A DNA stretch of 54,384 nt from Acidobacteriota bacterium (GCA_019639215.1 JAHBSH010000007.1:1-54384), one strand, 5' to 3'; counted from the first letter of the stretch, positions 14,856-44,319 are shown. A program made the numbers and translations. Notes: generated from the letters alone by a model not told the origin.

Positions 14856-15755
14856 ATGTTCTTTTTAGCAGCCGAACATCCGACGCCACTTATTGTCCAA
14901 TTTATCAATCATTATTTTGGCAAACCGGTTCATGAATTCCAGATGGCATACACAAAGCCCGTCTGGGACAAGTTCTTTGCCCTTTTTGGCACTGACGCAG
15001 AGGCCATGTTCGGTATGTACACACCTGAGAATGCGATCCCGTGGTACACAATAATGTTTACCATTGCCTGCATCGTTTCTGTGATCGTGATCGGGCTGCT
15101 GAAAGGCAAGCTTTCTGAAGAAGATCCGCATCCAGGCCAGATGACGCTCGAATCAGGCTTTCTCGCTATCAAGGATCTTGTCGTCAGCGTTATCGGTGAG
15201 CACGGATTCAAGTATTTTCCGGTCATTGCGACATTCGCGGTGCTTGTTCTTATCTCAAACCTGATGGGAACATTTCCGCTCTTTATGTCGCCGACCGCTT
15301 CGGTCAGTGTTACGTTCGCTCTCGGTATCGCTTCCTTCGTCTATTACAACTACGTCGGCATCAGCGAAAACGGGTTGATGAAACACCTCGGGCATCTTTC
15401 AGGGCCTAAGCTGCCGCTGTTGATGGCAATATTTATCACTCCGCTGATATTTTCCATAGAGCTGTTCAGTAATATGATCAGGCCTATAACATTAGGTGTT
15501 CGCCTTTTCGCGAACCTTTATGCTGACGAACAGATCTATTTTTCAATATCAAACCTATTTCCGCCATATACACAGATATTGGTTCCGGCGGGACTTTTGG
15601 TTCTGGCAGTTTTTGTGTCGTTTGTTCAAACACTTGTATTCACACTACTGTCATCGATATATATTAGTGAGGTAAGCCATCCGCCGCATGATGACCATCA
15701 TGATGAGGATCATGCCGCCGATCATGGCGACGCAGCTGCGGCCGCACATGCGTAG
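14856..15755 (+). CDS. atpB: F-type ATP synthase subunit a
   Basis: Encodes 299 residues with five or more membrane helices. The proton-channel helix carries the essential arginine at R216 in IRPITLGVRLFANLYADEQI. Subunit a forms the two half-channels that load and unload ions on the c-ring. The N-terminal region is longer than in E. coli. The C-terminus is a His/Asp/Ala-rich tail (HDDHHDEDHAADHGDAAAAA) that could bind metal or be disordered. The gene is followed by 226 bases before subunit c. Confidence 0.96.
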   Translation: MFFLAAEHPTPLIVQFINHYFGKPVHEFQMAYTKPVWDKFFALFGTDAEAMFGMYTPENAIPWYTIMFTIACIVSVIVIGLLKGKLSEEDPHPGQMTLESGFLAIKDLVVSVIGEHGFKYFPVIATFAVLVLISNLMGTFPLFMSPTASVSVTFALGIASFVYYNYVGISENGLMKHLGHLSGPKLPLLMAIFITPLIFSIELFSNMIRPITLGVRLFANLYADEQIYFSISNLFPPYTQILVPAGLLVLAVFVSFVQTLVFTLLSSIYISEVSHPPHDDHHDEDHAADHGDAAAAAHA

Positions 15756-38420: not shown

Positions 38421-39302
38421 ATGACCTCAATTGCCGTAAAATTGCGCACGACGCTAGAGATGATCAAATTTGAGCATACTCTCTTTGCGTTGCCGTTTGC
38501 GTTTCTTGGAGCAGTTCTGGCGGCGAACGGTCTGCCGACGTGGTGGCAGATATTATGGATCACCGTGGCGATGTTCGGCGCACGGTCGGCGGCGATGACC
38601 TTTAACCGTATCGTTGACAGAGACATCGACGCTCAGAATCCGCGCACGGCGAACCGCGAACTACCAAGCGGAAAACTCACCGTCGGTTTTGCATGGATGT
38701 TCCTGTTCGCCTCAATTGCTTTGTTCCTTATTGCCGCATGGTCGCTGAACTGGCTGACGTTTGCCCTGTCGCCGGTCGCTTTGGTCAGCGTACTCGGATA
38801 TTCATACGCAAAACGGTTCACGCCTTTCGCACATCTAATTTTGGGCTGGGCTTTGGCGATCTCGCCGACGGCGGCGTGGATAGCTGTTCGGGGGGCGATA
38901 GATTCTGAAGTTCCGCTGCTGATCTCGCTTTTCGTTCTGATGTGGACATCCGGCTTTGACATTCTTTATGCCTGCCAGGACATTGAATTTGACAGAAAGG
39001 CCGGGCTTCAATCAATACCCGCCCGCATGGGAATTTCACGCTCGCTCTGGATGGCACGCATCTTCCATTTTCAGGCATTCATCGTACTGCTTTTCCTTTA
39101 TATCGTAACGGATCTCGGTTGGCCTGCATTCATCGGGATCATGGCGGTCGCAGCATTGCTTGTGTACCAGCATACACTCGTCAAACCAAACGACCTGAGC
39201 CGTATGAACGCCGCGTTCTTTACGACCAATGCTTTTGTCAGTGTTATATTATTTGTCTCTTTTGGGGCTGCTGTTCTTATTCAGACACGCAATGGCGGCT
39301 GA
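38421..39302 (+). CDS. UbiA-family prenyltransferase, MqnP-like
   Basis: Encodes 293 residues with about eight helices. The two Asp-rich motifs that bind the Mg-prenyl diphosphate are [14 protein letters not shown] and [17 protein letters not shown]. The spacing suits the UbiA superfamily, and the C-terminal motif fits the MqnP-type members of the futalosine route to menaquinone, a quinone expected to feed the quinol-dependent NO reductase nearby. The exact substrate (4-hydroxybenzoate or a later futalosine intermediate) needs testing. It is followed six bases later by a Crp/Fnr gene. Confidence 0.85.
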
Positions 39303-39308
39303 TAATAG

Positions 39309-39956
39309 ATGAAACCGATTCTTCACTCATTGACGTCCGAGCTTCGCTCAAAACTTGAGAAACGCGGGCGAACTGTCGCATTCGCAACCGATGAGGAAGT
39401 ATTCGCCGAAGGCGACAAAGCCTCGGTATTGCCCATAGTTGTCAGCGGGTCGGTCAGAATGATGCGGTATCTTGAACCCGGAAAGGAACTGACCATAGGC
39501 ATTTTTCGGAATGGTGAAATGTTCGCTCTGCCTCCTGTCTTTGATGGCAAAAACTATCCCGCAACCGCCGTTGCAATGGAAAAAACAGTATTGCTGATGG
39601 TTCCAAGAGAGGATTTTCTTCAACTCTTACGCGAAAACAGCGATCTTTCCTTTGCCGTCATCGGATGGATGTGCAACATGCTTCGCGAAAAGACGGCGAT
39701 CATTCAAAACCTGGCAACATCCTCGCCCGAGCACCGCATCGGCACCATTCTTTTTAGATTGGCCGAAGAGAAGATCGACGCCGGACCGGTTCGTATAACG
39801 CTCCGCCGCGAAGACATTGCCAAAATGGCAGGCCTGACAACCGAAACTACTATCAGAGCCGTTAAAAAACTTGCCGACAAAGATTTTTTCTCTATCGTAC
39901 ACGGCAAGGTCGTCATCAATTCGCTAGAACCTTTGGACAGGTTTCTCAATGCCTGA
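39309..39956 (+). CDS. Crp/Fnr-family transcription regulator
   Basis: Encodes 215 residues. The cyclic-nucleotide-like sensor domain covers about residues 25-115 (ITIGIFRNGEMFALPPVFD is its core region). A long helix follows, then a winged helix-turn-helix (LRREDIAKMAGLTTETTIRA). There is no N-terminal cysteine cluster for an iron-sulfur centre; the one Cys lies in the dimer helix. DNR- and NnrR-type NO sensors share this shape and bind haem. It converges by 11 bases on the haemoglobin gene of the NO operon, the likely target. Confidence 0.9.
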   Translation: MKPILHSLTSELRSKLEKRGRTVAFATDEEVFAEGDKASVLPIVVSGSVRMMRYLEPGKELTIGIFRNGEMFALPPVFDGKNYPATAVAMEKTVLLMVPREDFLQLLRENSDLSFAVIGWMCNMLREKTAIIQNLATSSPEHRIGTILFRLAEEKIDAGPVRITLRREDIAKMAGLTTETTIRAVKKLADKDFFSIVHGKVVINSLEPLDRFLNA

Positions 39957-40347
39957 TCTCAAGGGCCGGAACGCCTCTGCAAAAATTCAGCATCCTATTC
40001 GCCATAAATACCGATCGTTCCCTGAGCGTTTCCGCACACGGCCCGGCAAAATTTTCGTTGATTACGGCGTGAAATATCTCCAGCCAACGGTCAAAATGTT
40101 CCCTTTTCAGCGGTTCCAGCATGTGCAGAGCCATGTGTACCTGTAGCGGATTACGCCCATGACGGCCATAATCGCCAGTACGGAAAAGCATCGATTCCCA
40201 AAAATCACCTATTACCGGAAGGTGTACATCCAGATCCAGATGTGCAACCTCCGTAAATAAATACCCGATCTTTTCATCAACCATCGCCCGCGAATAGAAT
40301 TCACGCATCAAAAGGTCGATATCATCTCTGTTCTCGACATCCCTCAT
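39946..40347 (-). CDS. group III truncated haemoglobin
   Basis: Encodes 133 residues, typical for the family. The proximal histidine is in the LKREHFDRWLEIF motif, and an early FYSRAM and later FWESMLFR fit the group III fold. These proteins bind NO and oxygen and are often made under nitrosative stress. It is the last gene of the NO operon, nine bases after the four-helix membrane protein. Its end overlaps the Crp/Fnr gene on the other strand by 11 bases. Confidence 0.9.
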   Translation of the reverse strand: MRDVENRDDIDLLMREFYSRAMVDEKIGYLFTEVAHLDLDVHLPVIGDFWESMLFRTGDYGRHGRNPLQVHMALHMLEPLKREHFDRWLEIFHAVINENFAGPCAETLRERSVFMANRMLNFCRGVPALEIRH

Positions 40348-40356
40348 AAAAACTAC

Positions 40357-40794
40357 CTACCGGGCATTCAAACTTCTTTTCGAGATCAAAATGCCCATGA
40401 CAAGAAGCGTCAGAATCTTTACCAGCTCGAACACGATATACAGGATATGAGTGTTCGATCCTGGAGGCGATTCGCCGCGTATCACCAGTTCGGCACGTAC
40501 GTCCAGCTCCGGCAAAAGCCAAAATGTCTGAAGCGCCAGCAGCAACGATACTCCGACAAAAAGATAGAACGGCAGGCCGCGATCACGTCGGGCGATGAGA
40601 AACGTCGCTGCCAGAATAACAGCAAACACTATCTCAACCATGTTCAGAGCCTGAAAGACCAGTCTGCCGATACCAAGTCCTAATCCGAGAGTGATGCCCG
40701 GCGCCCGAAACTTTAGCGGAGCTTCAAGAAACGAGATGCCGCCGAGCATTCCTACCCAAATAAAACTAATCGCAGTTTGTACTACCCTTACCAT
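40357..40794 (-). CDS. four-helix membrane protein in the NO operon
   Basis: Encodes 145 residues with four hydrophobic segments, among them AISFIWVGMLGGISFL, MVEIVFAVILAATFLI and FELVKILTLLVMGILI. An early SFLEAPLKFRAP stretch resembles small proteins of DUF4149 type, but I am not sure of the family. It lies between the NO reductase and haemoglobin genes, which suggests a helper of the reductase. The stop and start of its neighbours are 40 and nine bases away. Confidence 0.65.
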   Translation of the reverse strand: MVRVVQTAISFIWVGMLGGISFLEAPLKFRAPGITLGLGLGIGRLVFQALNMVEIVFAVILAATFLIARRDRGLPFYLFVGVSLLLALQTFWLLPELDVRAELVIRGESPPGSNTHILYIVFELVKILTLLVMGILISKRSLNAR

Positions 40795-40834
40795 TTTTTT
40801 ATCTTACCTTTTTTCAGGCTCGATATGTGTTATG

Positions 40835-43072
40835 TCATGGCAGCTTTTTACCCTCTTTTTCTTCGACACGACCCGTCAACATCAGCTTCACCGCGAACCA
40901 TACAAATATAATGGCTCCGGCGGCAAATATGGTGTCGCCAAATAGACGCATCCAGCGCAAGAACTCCATCAGGTCTGTCTGCATAAATTCAGGACTTCGC
41001 GCCGACCAATAACCGACCGAAACAGATTGATATGTCTGTAAGAGGCCGATAGGCAAAAGACTCAGAAGTATCTCCAGTAGCATCCCGATATTGATCGTCC
41101 AGAAAGCGATGGCAAGAACTTTTTCATTCCATTTTCTTTCAGGCTGCATTGCCCGCAAACAGAACAACATCAGAGCCAGGCCGAGAGTTCCGTAAACGCC
41201 ATATAACGCACCATGAGCGTGAACGGCTGTCGTATTCAACCCCTGCATGTAATACAGAGCTATCGGCGGATTTATCATAAACCCGAAAACACCTGCGCCG
41301 ACCAGATTCCAGAATGCGACTGCAACGAAGAAATAGACGATCCATTTATATTGCTGTAACCATGGCCTTGCTTGCGAATGACGTATATTCTCAAACGCCT
41401 CATAACCAACGAACACAAGCGGCACTATTTCAAGAGCGCTGAAAACGGCTCCGAACGCCAATGCTATCGTCGGCGTACCGGCAAAATAAAGATGATGCAA
41501 TGTACCGATGATGCCGCCGCTCAAATATATGGCACCGGACAATAATGCCGCATAAGCAGCATGAACCGGATCGATCACCTTTAGCTTGGCAAACAGAAAT
41601 GCGATGACGACCGTAGCAAAAACTTCAAAAAAGCCTTCGACCCAAAGATGGACGACCCACCAGCGCCAATATTCCACAACGGTCAGGTGCGAACGCATTC
41701 CCCAAAACAGGCCTGGAGAATAAAAGAAAGCTATGCCCGCCGTTGTTATCAGATACAGGATTATCAGCGATTTGCTGGAGCCTTCCTGTTTCAATGCAGG
41801 AATCGCAGAACGTGCTATCAGAAACAGCCATAATATAAGCCCGATGAACAATGCTATCTGCCAGAGCCGTCCGAGGTCGACATATTCGTAACCCTGATGT
41901 CCGATCCAGAACCAAAGATCGCCCGGCAGCAGATGCATCACGCTAGCCCATTGGCCGATCATCGAACCCAAAACAACCACAAGCAATGCGCCGAACAGCA
42001 CGTTGACCCCAAGCCGTTGAAATTTTGGTTCATAGCCGCATATGTAAGGGGCAATGTATAGTCCCGCCGCAAGCCACGCGGTCGCTATCCAGAAAATGCC
42101 GAGTTGCGTGTGCCAGGTGCGTGTTACGACATACGGCAAATAATCCGATAGAGGAAATCCGTAGAAACCACCGCCCTCTACACCGTAATGTGCGGTGATA
42201 ATGCCCATCACGATCTGCAGCAGGAAAAGCAGAGAAACGACAATAAAATATTTTACCGTTGCCTTTTGCGAAGGCGTTACTGCCTGCCCGATCAGCGGAT
42301 CAGTGTCAGGGGCATTTTGTGAACCGTGATAGCCAGGCCATCCGGCATAGAACCAAACCATCATACCTATGCCCGCGATCAGTAAAATAACACTAACGCC
42401 GGTCCAGATAATGGAGCTTTCCGTTGGGACATTACCGACAAGCGGTTCTGACGGAAAATTTGAGGTGTATGAGATCGTATTGTCAGGACGATTGGCCGCA
42501 GATGCCCAAGAGGTCCAGAATATGAATGCCGTAAGATGCCGGAGCTTTACCGGGTCTGATTGAGCATTACGCTGAATAGCATAATCCTCATTTCCATTTG
42601 TAAAAACATCGGAGTAATGGATGAGATTAGCTTCAAAAGCTCTTGCCCTCACCGGTTCGATGGTCAATCTTCCGCTTGCCGCATCATAATTGTTCTTACG
42701 AACCATGTCCTGAAGCCGTTGTCGGAGCTTTGCCTGTTCCTCACTAGGCAAAGCCTCATAGCTCTGAGCAAAATCATTATTCGCAAATTCATCTAATATG
42801 AATAGTGCTTCGCGATGGAGATAATCAGCCGTCCAATCGGGAGCCACATAGCTTCCGTGTCCCCATATTGAACCTACCTGCATTCCGCCCATGGCCTGCC
42901 AGACATTTTGGCCGTCCATTATGCTTTCTTTTGGGATGATAACTGTCCCGTCTGTGGATACTACTTCATTAGGGATCGGGGGGATCTGCCTAAATATCTC
43001 TGAGCCGATAAGCCCGAGAATGGCAAATGACACTAACAGTACTGCTGCAAATATTATCCAAAGTTTTCTCAT
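40835..43072 (-). CDS. norZ: quinol-dependent nitric oxide reductase
   Basis: Encodes 745 residues, the length of one-polypeptide qNOR. The N-terminal extension (IPPIPNEVVSTDG, GQNVWQAMGGMQVGSIWGHG) replaces the cytochrome c partner and has no haem c motif. About 14 helices follow in the haem-copper oxidase fold. The active-site segment is VVHLWVEGFFEVF, with the Glu typical of NO reductases. It reduces 2 NO to N2O with electrons from menaquinol in the cytoplasmic membrane. An SD (AGAGGAAAAAG) precedes the ATG. It is the core of a minus-strand NO operon. Confidence 0.95.
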   Translation of the reverse strand: MRKLWIIFAAVLLVSFAILGLIGSEIFRQIPPIPNEVVSTDGTVIIPKESIMDGQNVWQAMGGMQVGSIWGHGSYVAPDWTADYLHREALFILDEFANNDFAQSYEALPSEEQAKLRQRLQDMVRKNNYDAASGRLTIEPVRARAFEANLIHYSDVFTNGNEDYAIQRNAQSDPVKLRHLTAFIFWTSWASAANRPDNTISYTSNFPSEPLVGNVPTESSIIWTGVSVILLIAGIGMMVWFYAGWPGYHGSQNAPDTDPLIGQAVTPSQKATVKYFIVVSLLFLLQIVMGIITAHYGVEGGGFYGFPLSDYLPYVVTRTWHTQLGIFWIATAWLAAGLYIAPYICGYEPKFQRLGVNVLFGALLVVVLGSMIGQWASVMHLLPGDLWFWIGHQGYEYVDLGRLWQIALFIGLILWLFLIARSAIPALKQEGSSKSLIILYLITTAGIAFFYSPGLFWGMRSHLTVVEYWRWWVVHLWVEGFFEVFATVVIAFLFAKLKVIDPVHAAYAALLSGAIYLSGGIIGTLHHLYFAGTPTIALAFGAVFSALEIVPLVFVGYEAFENIRHSQARPWLQQYKWIVYFFVAVAFWNLVGAGVFGFMINPPIALYYMQGLNTTAVHAHGALYGVYGTLGLALMLFCLRAMQPERKWNEKVLAIAFWTINIGMLLEILLSLLPIGLLQTYQSVSVGYWSARSPEFMQTDLMEFLRWMRLFGDTIFAAGAIIFVWFAVKLMLTGRVEEKEGKKLP

Positions 43073-43146
43073 CTTTTTCCTCTTATAGGTTGGTTTTTTA
43101 TGACACGGGTACTTCTAAAACATGCCAAATATTAGATAACACTGCT

Positions 43147-43485
43147 TTAATTATTAGATTTCTTGAATTTTGTCAACATAAGATGCAGTTCCGGCTCTGA
43201 TCTGACCTCGTGCACTACGCCTGCGTCCAGGGTCAAAAGAACACCAGGATCGAGTGCAATAGCTTCTTCAAGCGTATCGCCGGCCAAAAATGTACCCTTG
43301 CCTCCAAGGCAAAGGATCATTATCGGTTCGGGTGATGAATGGCGCGAAAGCATCTCGCCCTCTCTGAGCACGATCGAAATAACCTTGCTGAGGCCGTCTT
43401 CTAAAACAACACTCACGGTCTTCGGTTTGTCGGTTAAAGGAACGCTTCCAGGTTCTTTGAACTCAAATGTTTTTATCAGGGACAT
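43147..43485 (-). CDS. small cupin-domain protein
   Basis: Encodes 112 residues. A single cupin barrel is visible: VSVVLEDGLSKVISIVLREG, then EGEMLSRHSSPEPIMI with a metal-type His, and a second motif VLLTLDAGVVHEV. The pattern lacks several usual His/Glu ligands but keeps two histidines. The role in the NO operon is not known; cupins beside DUF2249 proteins recur in denitrification clusters. It is 26 bases from the DUF1858/DUF2249 gene. Confidence 0.8.
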   Translation of the reverse strand: MSLIKTFEFKEPGSVPLTDKPKTVSVVLEDGLSKVISIVLREGEMLSRHSSPEPIMILCLGGKGTFLAGDTLEEAIALDPGVLLTLDAGVVHEVRSEPELHLMLTKFKKSNN

Positions 43486-43511
43486 ATGTATTCTCGTTTG
43501 TTTCTAAATAT

Positions 43512-44105
43512 TTACCAGTGGCCGACCGCAGCCGCGTGAACAACTGTCGGCCGATAAAAATAGATGTACCAATCGCCGGGAAACCGCTCTTCCGCCCAGC
43601 TTGCCAAACCTTTTCGGCGAGCGAACATATCCCTAAGCGGGATCGGGTCAAAAGGATGCCTTATCAATAGAACTTCCATGTTCTCTTTCAACTTGACCAG
43701 TCCGCGTGCTATGTCAGGCATAGGGTCACGCCGAAGATCTGCGTGCGGCGTCACATCGACAAAGATCACTCTCGGATCGTCGTCTTCCAATCCAATAAGC
43801 TCTCGCGGTTTCAGGACCGGATTGGTTTCGCGATATTCCATGTCCTCTTTTGGAAGACAGCACAGTTCTTCATTCAGCTCGTCAGGATCGCATCCAGCGG
43901 CAAGATTGAGTACGAACAAGGCCTCCGCCAAAGGAACACGGCCTATTCGCGCAGCCTGTGCTACGGTCACACGACCACTCATTGCTCGTCTGAGCTTCGG
44001 ATATCTAAGCCGCTCAAAAGCAGGTGCCAGCCAGAAGAAAGCATCCAGCATGTGTTCGCCTAGTTCGAGAACTTCTTTGACCTTCATTTTTTCCGTTATT
44101 TTCAT
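43512..44105 (-). CDS. DUF1858/DUF2249 protein, first gene of the NO operon
   Basis: Encodes 197 residues from ATG 44105, chosen because AGGAGG stands six bases before it; the longer frame to 44189 includes the regulatory region. The N-terminal DUF1858 part runs to about residue 75 (KITEKMKVKEVLELG to EALFVLNLAAG). The DUF2249 part is near residues 115-195 (VIFVDVTPHADLRRDPM, PIPLRDMFARRKG and GDWYIYFYRP). These domains are common beside nitrite, NO and NosZ genes and probably handle metal or redox stress. The exact job is unknown. Confidence 0.85.
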   Translation of the reverse strand: MKITEKMKVKEVLELGEHMLDAFFWLAPAFERLRYPKLRRAMSGRVTVAQAARIGRVPLAEALFVLNLAAGCDPDELNEELCCLPKEDMEYRETNPVLKPRELIGLEDDDPRVIFVDVTPHADLRRDPMPDIARGLVKLKENMEVLLIRHPFDPIPLRDMFARRKGLASWAEERFPGDWYIYFYRPTVVHAAAVGHW

Positions 44106-44144
44106 CTCAAACCTCCTGTGTCGATGAAAGACATCTGCTCTGTA

Positions 44145-44193
44145 TAGCGGCAGTATATTGTTGTAGTTAGGCTTAAAAAATGATTTCAATCAT
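44145..44193 (-). promoter_or_regulatory. class II FNR/DNR-like promoter of the NO operon
   Basis: On either strand 44180-44193 holds ATGAT-N4-ATCAT, close to the FNR/DNR consensus TTGAT-N4-ATCAA. On the minus strand TATACT (44157-44152) is a -10 element, which puts the start near 44145. The box centre at 44186.5 then lies about 41.5 bases upstream, the classic position for activation by Crp/Fnr proteins. The Crp/Fnr gene is about 4 kb away at the other end of the operon. Confidence 0.75.
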
Positions 44194-44251: not shown

Positions 44252-44278
44252 AAAAAAACCGGCCAGTAAATGGCCGGT
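44252..44278 (-). terminator. intrinsic terminator of the DUF72 gene
   Basis: ACCGGCCA (44258-44265) pairs with TGGCCGGT (44271-44278) around a GTAAA loop. Read on the minus strand it is followed by seven T. It ends the DUF72 gene before the NO operon promoter, so the two units are separate. Confidence 0.92.
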
Positions 44279-44319
44279 CTGAGGTTCTGCTAAATTTAGG
44301 CAAAGAACTGAGAATCAGT

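Follow-up and report, generated by a model that had tools for sequence, protein, structure and literature searches.

A probable nitric oxide-detoxification operon in an Acidobacteriota genome, with a class II promoter box that co-occurs with a convergent Crp/Fnr gene

NO-responsive Crp/Fnr regulons are a known kind of system, and the locus described here is a variant that includes an uncharacterised membrane protein, termed TM4. In Campylobacter jejuni, the Crp/Fnr-family regulator NssR controls group III truncated haemoglobin under NO stress (NssR-Ctb/Cgb). The NssR box differs from the one found here, and to our knowledge its regulon contains neither a quinol-dependent nitric oxide reductase (qNOR) nor TM4. 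COG4309 is presumably the DUF2249 family. It adjoins norB and is co-regulated with it (PMC1274295). Thermus thermophilus DrpB (DUF1858-DUF2249-DUF2249) is encoded in a nitrate respiration cluster (PMC6282519); DrpA/DrpB resemble the present locus in combining DUF1858 and DUF2249 domains with a nitrogen-oxide respiration cluster, but DrpB has two DUF2249 domains and is linked to nitrate reductase, not to qNOR. The DNR regulon of Pseudomonas and beta-proteobacteria (CTTGATnnnnATCAAG; PMC1274295) shares with this locus a Crp/Fnr activator without FeS cysteines, a box of equal length with a TGA-N6-TCA core and an NO reductase target. The outer base of the box here, however, is A rather than T, the regulator carries Thr at the position of CRP R180, and it has no conserved His. 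The targets of Bradyrhizobium NnrR (PMC6710368) resemble those apparent here in that they include an NO reductase, a DUF1858 protein and a group III truncated haemoglobin, whereas the NnrR regulon has a TTGcgN4cgCAA site, a cNOR instead of a qNOR, and an alpha-proteobacterial regulator clade.

The window, i.e. the whole stretch of 54,384 nt analysed, contains five minus-strand genes in a row that form one unit, DUF1858/DUF2249-cupin-qNOR-TM4-trHb. The first gene (43512-44105, 197 aa) starts with ATG at 44105 behind the ribosome-binding sequence AGGAGG (44112-44117); its product matched DUF1858 (E 1e-6) and DUF2249 (E 4e-6), both slightly below the Pfam cut-offs. The small cupin (43147-43485, 112 aa) retains just His49 and His92 from the usual metal set, and both are invariant. 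The qNOR (40835-43072, 745 aa) matched PF22085 (NorB cytochrome c-like, 1e-64), PF00115 (COX1, 3e-61) and the solved qNORs in the PDB (E 3e-249); it carries the VHLWVEG, LHHLY and VHAH motifs and has the fused N-terminal cytochrome c-like domain and haem-copper-type NorB domain of a qNOR. TM4 (40357-40794, 145 aa) is a four-helix membrane protein, perhaps distantly related to DUF4149. The last gene (39946-40347, 133 aa) encodes a protein with the features of a group III truncated haemoglobin (trHb). In the PDB it matched the group III protein 2ig3 at E 2.6e-9 and other globins at E ~0.2, and the FY, HLP and VH positions, the predicted distal Tyr/His and proximal His, were kept. Neither TM4 nor trHb had an accepted match in Pfam or NCBIfam.

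The gaps between the five genes are, in order, 26, 74, 40 and 9 bases, and a separate transcription start could lie within the 74-base gap before qNOR. The operon is set apart from the upstream DUF72 gene by an intrinsic terminator of that gene (44256-44280, minus strand; 10 bp stem with 6 GC pairs, followed by a T run). The initial annotation had described a tightly spaced five-gene row forming a single NO-detoxification operon. Every element of the row was found in place, and the operon reading was supported. At the other end, a plus-strand gene for a Crp/Fnr-family regulator (39309-39956, 215 aa) converges on the operon, its 3′ end overlapping that of trHb by 11 bases. Six bases upstream of it lies a UbiA/MqnP-like prenyltransferase gene (38421-39302, plus strand), a genus-conserved neighbour that immediately precedes the Crp gene in the majority of relatives (L032-L047). 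It remains in L047 though the Crp gene is gone, and in L033 the match to its homologue is split by ~700 bases near the C-terminal end, as if by an insertion. A link between quinone synthesis, of the menaquinone type, and the quinol-using NO reductase is possible.

The palindromic box ATGATTGAAATCAT (ATGATTTCAATCAT on the plus strand) lies at 44180-44193 on the minus strand, and the -10 element TATACT (44152-44157, minus strand) begins 29 bases past the box centre. Taking the first base of the hexamer as -12 places the centre (44186.5) at -41.5. A box centred at -41.5, overlapping the -35 region, occupies the class II activator position. The palindrome by itself is weak evidence. The window has three ATGATN4ATCAT sites where 0.23 would be expected, the other two being elsewhere, and the genome contains 24 ATGAYN4RTCAT sites; the core 14-mer was accordingly not specific as a genome-wide target finder, and a mismatch-tolerant scan gave merely about twice its control. 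Two overlapping ATGATN4ATCAT palindromes at 15688-15713 are within a coding region and probably codon-driven. The T-flanked form, on the other hand, occurs once in the genome, at this operon.

Phylogenetic footprinting lifted the box far above chance. Same-genus loci (L032-L051 and L126) were compared, and TTTATGAYYN4RTCATWTT, with few deviations, was found upstream of the operon in all 17 loci with a convergent Crp/Fnr gene, one of which (genome G028) is split across two contigs, L050 and L051; these loci share kinship and are not 17 independent events. Shuffled sequences carried the box at about 3% per locus. The deviations were a degenerate left half (L046), an initial G (L044), a final G (L042, L043) and C in place of A/G ahead of TCAT (L034, L039). 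The first gene of the operon varies among the loci (DUF1858, cupin or qNOR), and the box stays upstream of it. Moreover, in 16 of the 17 loci a TANNNT hexamer begins exactly 29 bases past the box centre; in L046 it is shifted. The mean score was reached by none of 2000 shuffles. The window contains the full pattern of box and hexamer a single time, and 100 shuffles yielded none. The presence in every locus and the fixed -10 offset, both beyond what shuffles gave, put the box far above chance, and the fixed spacing is that of a class II promoter with a predicted transcription start. The earlier placement of the box about 41.5 bases before the start deduced from TATACT was therefore upheld, by the sequence and by the same offset in the relatives.

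The presence of the box was compared with that of the convergent Crp/Fnr gene. Four same-genus qNOR loci (L035, L047, L048, L049) are without a local Crp gene, and the box was missing in all four (17/17 versus 0/4, Fisher p = 1.7e-4 among related loci). In L047, for example, there is neither a Crp gene between the UbiA and haemoglobin genes nor a box. The genomes without the local Crp still carry another, more distantly related one with 46-48% identity to the window's protein; it is thus the local gene that the box accompanies. This bears on the reading that the convergent gene is a mere neighbour and that another regulator uses the box. A convergent position alone is no proof of control, and several same-genus genomes do contain a second, related Crp; however, the box is missing along with the local Crp even where that second Crp is kept, and the regulator described here is the sole PF00027 (cNMP-binding-domain) protein found in the window's genome (completeness 92%). 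We regard this reading as very improbable. The proposal that the convergent gene encodes the operon's regulator thus gained support from both the co-occurrence and the single PF00027 protein.

Activation rather than repression is what we infer from the promoter geometry. A repressor whose block is relieved by NO could also sit at this box: it reaches the -35 region, from which repressors act as well, and a flavobacterial module of the same genes (see below) sits behind an Rrf2 (NsrR-like) gene, whose family consists of repressors. Against this, -41.5 with exact spacing is the position of a class II activator, the promoter listing shows none with a discernible -35 at this place, and loci without the regulator are also without the box. 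Repression is thus considered quite unlikely, and NO-responsive class II activation of the operon is well supported.

The family of the regulator was examined from its sequence and from its box. The label FNR/DNR-type given in the initial annotation found no support as a family assignment. The half-site is ATGA and not the TTGA of DNR sites (TTGAT-N4-ATCAA), and DNR was only a distant match (E 1e-10), ranked behind many CRPs. In place of the FNR cysteine cluster there is a single Cys122, and 7 of 23 relatives have Ser at its position. The RSA triplet with which CRP binds cAMP is replaced by YPA, in which Pro84 never varies and Tyr83 hardly does, and the box is also unlike the TTGcgN4cgCAA-type site of NnrR. 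The fold search returned generic CRP-fold proteins only. The protein is therefore no FNR, and DNR membership is not demonstrable from the sequence. The positions of CRP R180/E181/R185 are Thr/Glu/Arg in all qNOR-linked regulators; in two paralogues (L124 and L128) Leu replaces the Thr. Of the 17 sites, 16 have A as the outer base of the box and one has G; none has T. Rodionov et al. (PMC1274295) described the pairing of R180 with G, and of Ser or Pro with T, at the corresponding base. Thr with A would extend this series.

The absence of iron-sulfur cysteines had been taken to indicate a haem-type NO sensor. The absence itself was confirmed, but the step to haem is not supported by the residues, and missing FeS cysteines do not imply haem. 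No conserved His or Cys was found in the regulator across 23 orthologues and paralogues; H6, H142 and H198 all vary. Haem binding through Met or another residue is possible. In Porphyromonas gingivalis HcpR the haem ligand is Met68, and the candidate His is not conserved (PMC12750200). In a by-eye alignment the invariant Met51 of the present regulator lies near, not at, the HcpR Met68 position, two residues before it on the same strand. Since the regulator has no conserved His or Cys, we infer NO as its signal from its targets only.

These targets were sought in the genus. The pattern TTATGAYN4RTCATNTT had 32 sites in 41 same-genus genomes, against none for the reversed control; some, e.g. in L123, L131 and L132, are within genes and look like chance. 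Besides those at the qNOR operon, many of the boxes stand ahead of RIC/YtfE (ScdA_N and hemerythrin domains), paired RIC and YwiC genes, TM4 or a molybdopterin oxidoreductase operon, and the box also precedes a KorA-type gene that diverges from RIC. Where TM4 stands alone behind the box, TANNNT keeps the 29-base offset in L115, L116 and L130; L117, read by eye, shows it too. Ahead of RIC or the molybdopterin operon the hexamer shows less regularity. The gene content of the box-bearing set is, as far as its predicted products tell, that of an NO-stress regulon. A cluster of RIC, KorA, a SLAC1-type transporter, ferredoxin and molybdopterin oxidoreductase is conserved in L115, L116, L117, L119 and L122, where it carries two or three boxes and lies beside another Crp belonging to the same clade.

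These targets also bear on whether the regulator, acting on the same operon through the same box, senses low oxygen or redox state, with NO being made by the denitrification of neighbours under anoxia. FNR- and FixK-type relatives often report oxygen, and FixK was the best NCBIfam match of the regulator, far below threshold; boxes before the molybdopterin oxidoreductase operon and KorA fit anoxia or nitrate equally well. However, the regulator is without the FNR cysteines and without any conserved cysteine, a FixK-like protein would depend on a two-component system acting above it, and the recurring targets (RIC, qNOR, trHb, TM4) are NO-stress genes. Oxygen or redox sensing is therefore rated unlikely, though not negligible.

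RIC was not detected in the window's genome, and for NirK there was only a sub-threshold multicopper match. With no RIC detected and no NirK above the cut-off, the qNOR most likely detoxifies NO from outside. Other Acidobacteria with NOR but without nitrite reductase have been described (PMC5900883). Among the genomes with the qNOR operon, TM4 carriers are mostly without RIC/YtfE, and those lacking TM4 have RIC (p 0.0016), which hints at overlapping roles of TM4 and RIC/YtfE. This complementarity, uncorrected for kinship, weakens to p 0.05 over all 41 genomes.

The roles of the cupin and four-helix genes, left open in the initial annotation, could be answered in part from their neighbourhoods. 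A contig scan with the TM4 alignment gave at least 547 relatives, and the best 80, most similar to the window's copy, were kept. In 42 of these 80 loci TM4 has a group III haemoglobin gene adjacent or close by on its own strand; the other neighbours were Rrf2 (20), hemerythrin-like proteins (11), RIC (9) and a small cupin (9). Because TM4 adjoins the haemoglobin in 42 of 80 loci, we consider it an uncharacterised NO-defence family. No such neighbours were found around actinobacterial members, so the link to NO concerns part of the family. In four flavobacterial loci (L142, L158, L196, L212) the order is Rrf2, TM4, cupin, qNOR and trHb, with an extra small gene in L196; Rrf2 was assigned there from reading the sequence, not from a database match. 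TM4, cupin, qNOR and trHb thus recur together on one strand, as in the window, but in another order and with an Rrf2 (NsrR-like) regulator instead of Crp/Fnr. No description of these flavobacterial operons was found in the literature searched. TM4 and a group III haemoglobin were also seen after apparent cytochrome oxidase-type genes in eight loci (L145, L155, L160, L162, L165, L167, L177, L190; clusters c10, c13 and c14) from Bacteroidota and one Verrucomicrobia genome.

The predicted structure of TM4, a high-confidence model, has four long helices (pLDDT 96). W13, S21, E24, K28, N51, E54, R100, H116 and K126 are conserved in at least 95% of the sequences, which suggests a chemical or cofactor role and not that of a mere anchor. 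The window's TM4 did not match DUF4149 (PF13664); 14 of 67 relatives did at E <= 0.1, the best at 2e-6. Its profile had no match in the PDB, and Foldseek gave nothing below E 1. In the VIA-align list, designed helical bundles came on top, and cytochrome b561 (Z 10) scored as expected for any helical bundle. The TM4 gene in L115 (14398-14859) stops showing similarity beyond residue 110 or so, as a frameshift or an error in the assembly would cause. A full-text literature search for TM4/DUF4149 with nitric oxide returned nothing, and a Crp/Fnr meta-regulon paper on anammox sludge contains nothing on these genes.

We know of no established physiological reductant of group III truncated haemoglobins. 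TM4 might work directly with the group III trHb, e.g. as a quinol-linked electron donor or as a membrane dock, an idea we put forward tentatively and hold to be rather doubtful. If it is true, the polar residues E24, K28, N51, E54, R100, H116 and K126, which vary little or not at all, would form a redox or quinone site, and the partnership of TM4 and trHb would explain the turnover of reductase-less globins.

Taken as a whole, the locus is very probably a self-contained NO-detoxification operon, class II-activated by the convergent Crp/Fnr protein under nitrosative stress. The host is probably a non-denitrifying member of the Blastocatellia/Pyrinomonadaceae (Acidobacteriota); named relatives from these two groups point to that phylum. 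Nitrosative stress would activate the Crp/Fnr protein, and the protein would bind the single palindrome centred at -41.5 and bring about sigma70-type transcription of the five genes. The qNOR would then draw electrons from (mena)quinol to reduce NO to N2O, and the group III haemoglobin would bind or turn over NO in the cytoplasm. TM4, the cupin and the DUF2249 protein would be accessory.

A probable NO-responsive Crp/Fnr regulon is thereby defined, from sequence alone, in the Acidobacteriota, an abundant soil phylum. Its distinct ATGA half-site is accompanied by an altered main specificity residue in the regulator. The regulon also ties TM4, a widespread four-helix membrane family that seems unstudied, to group III truncated haemoglobins across phyla.
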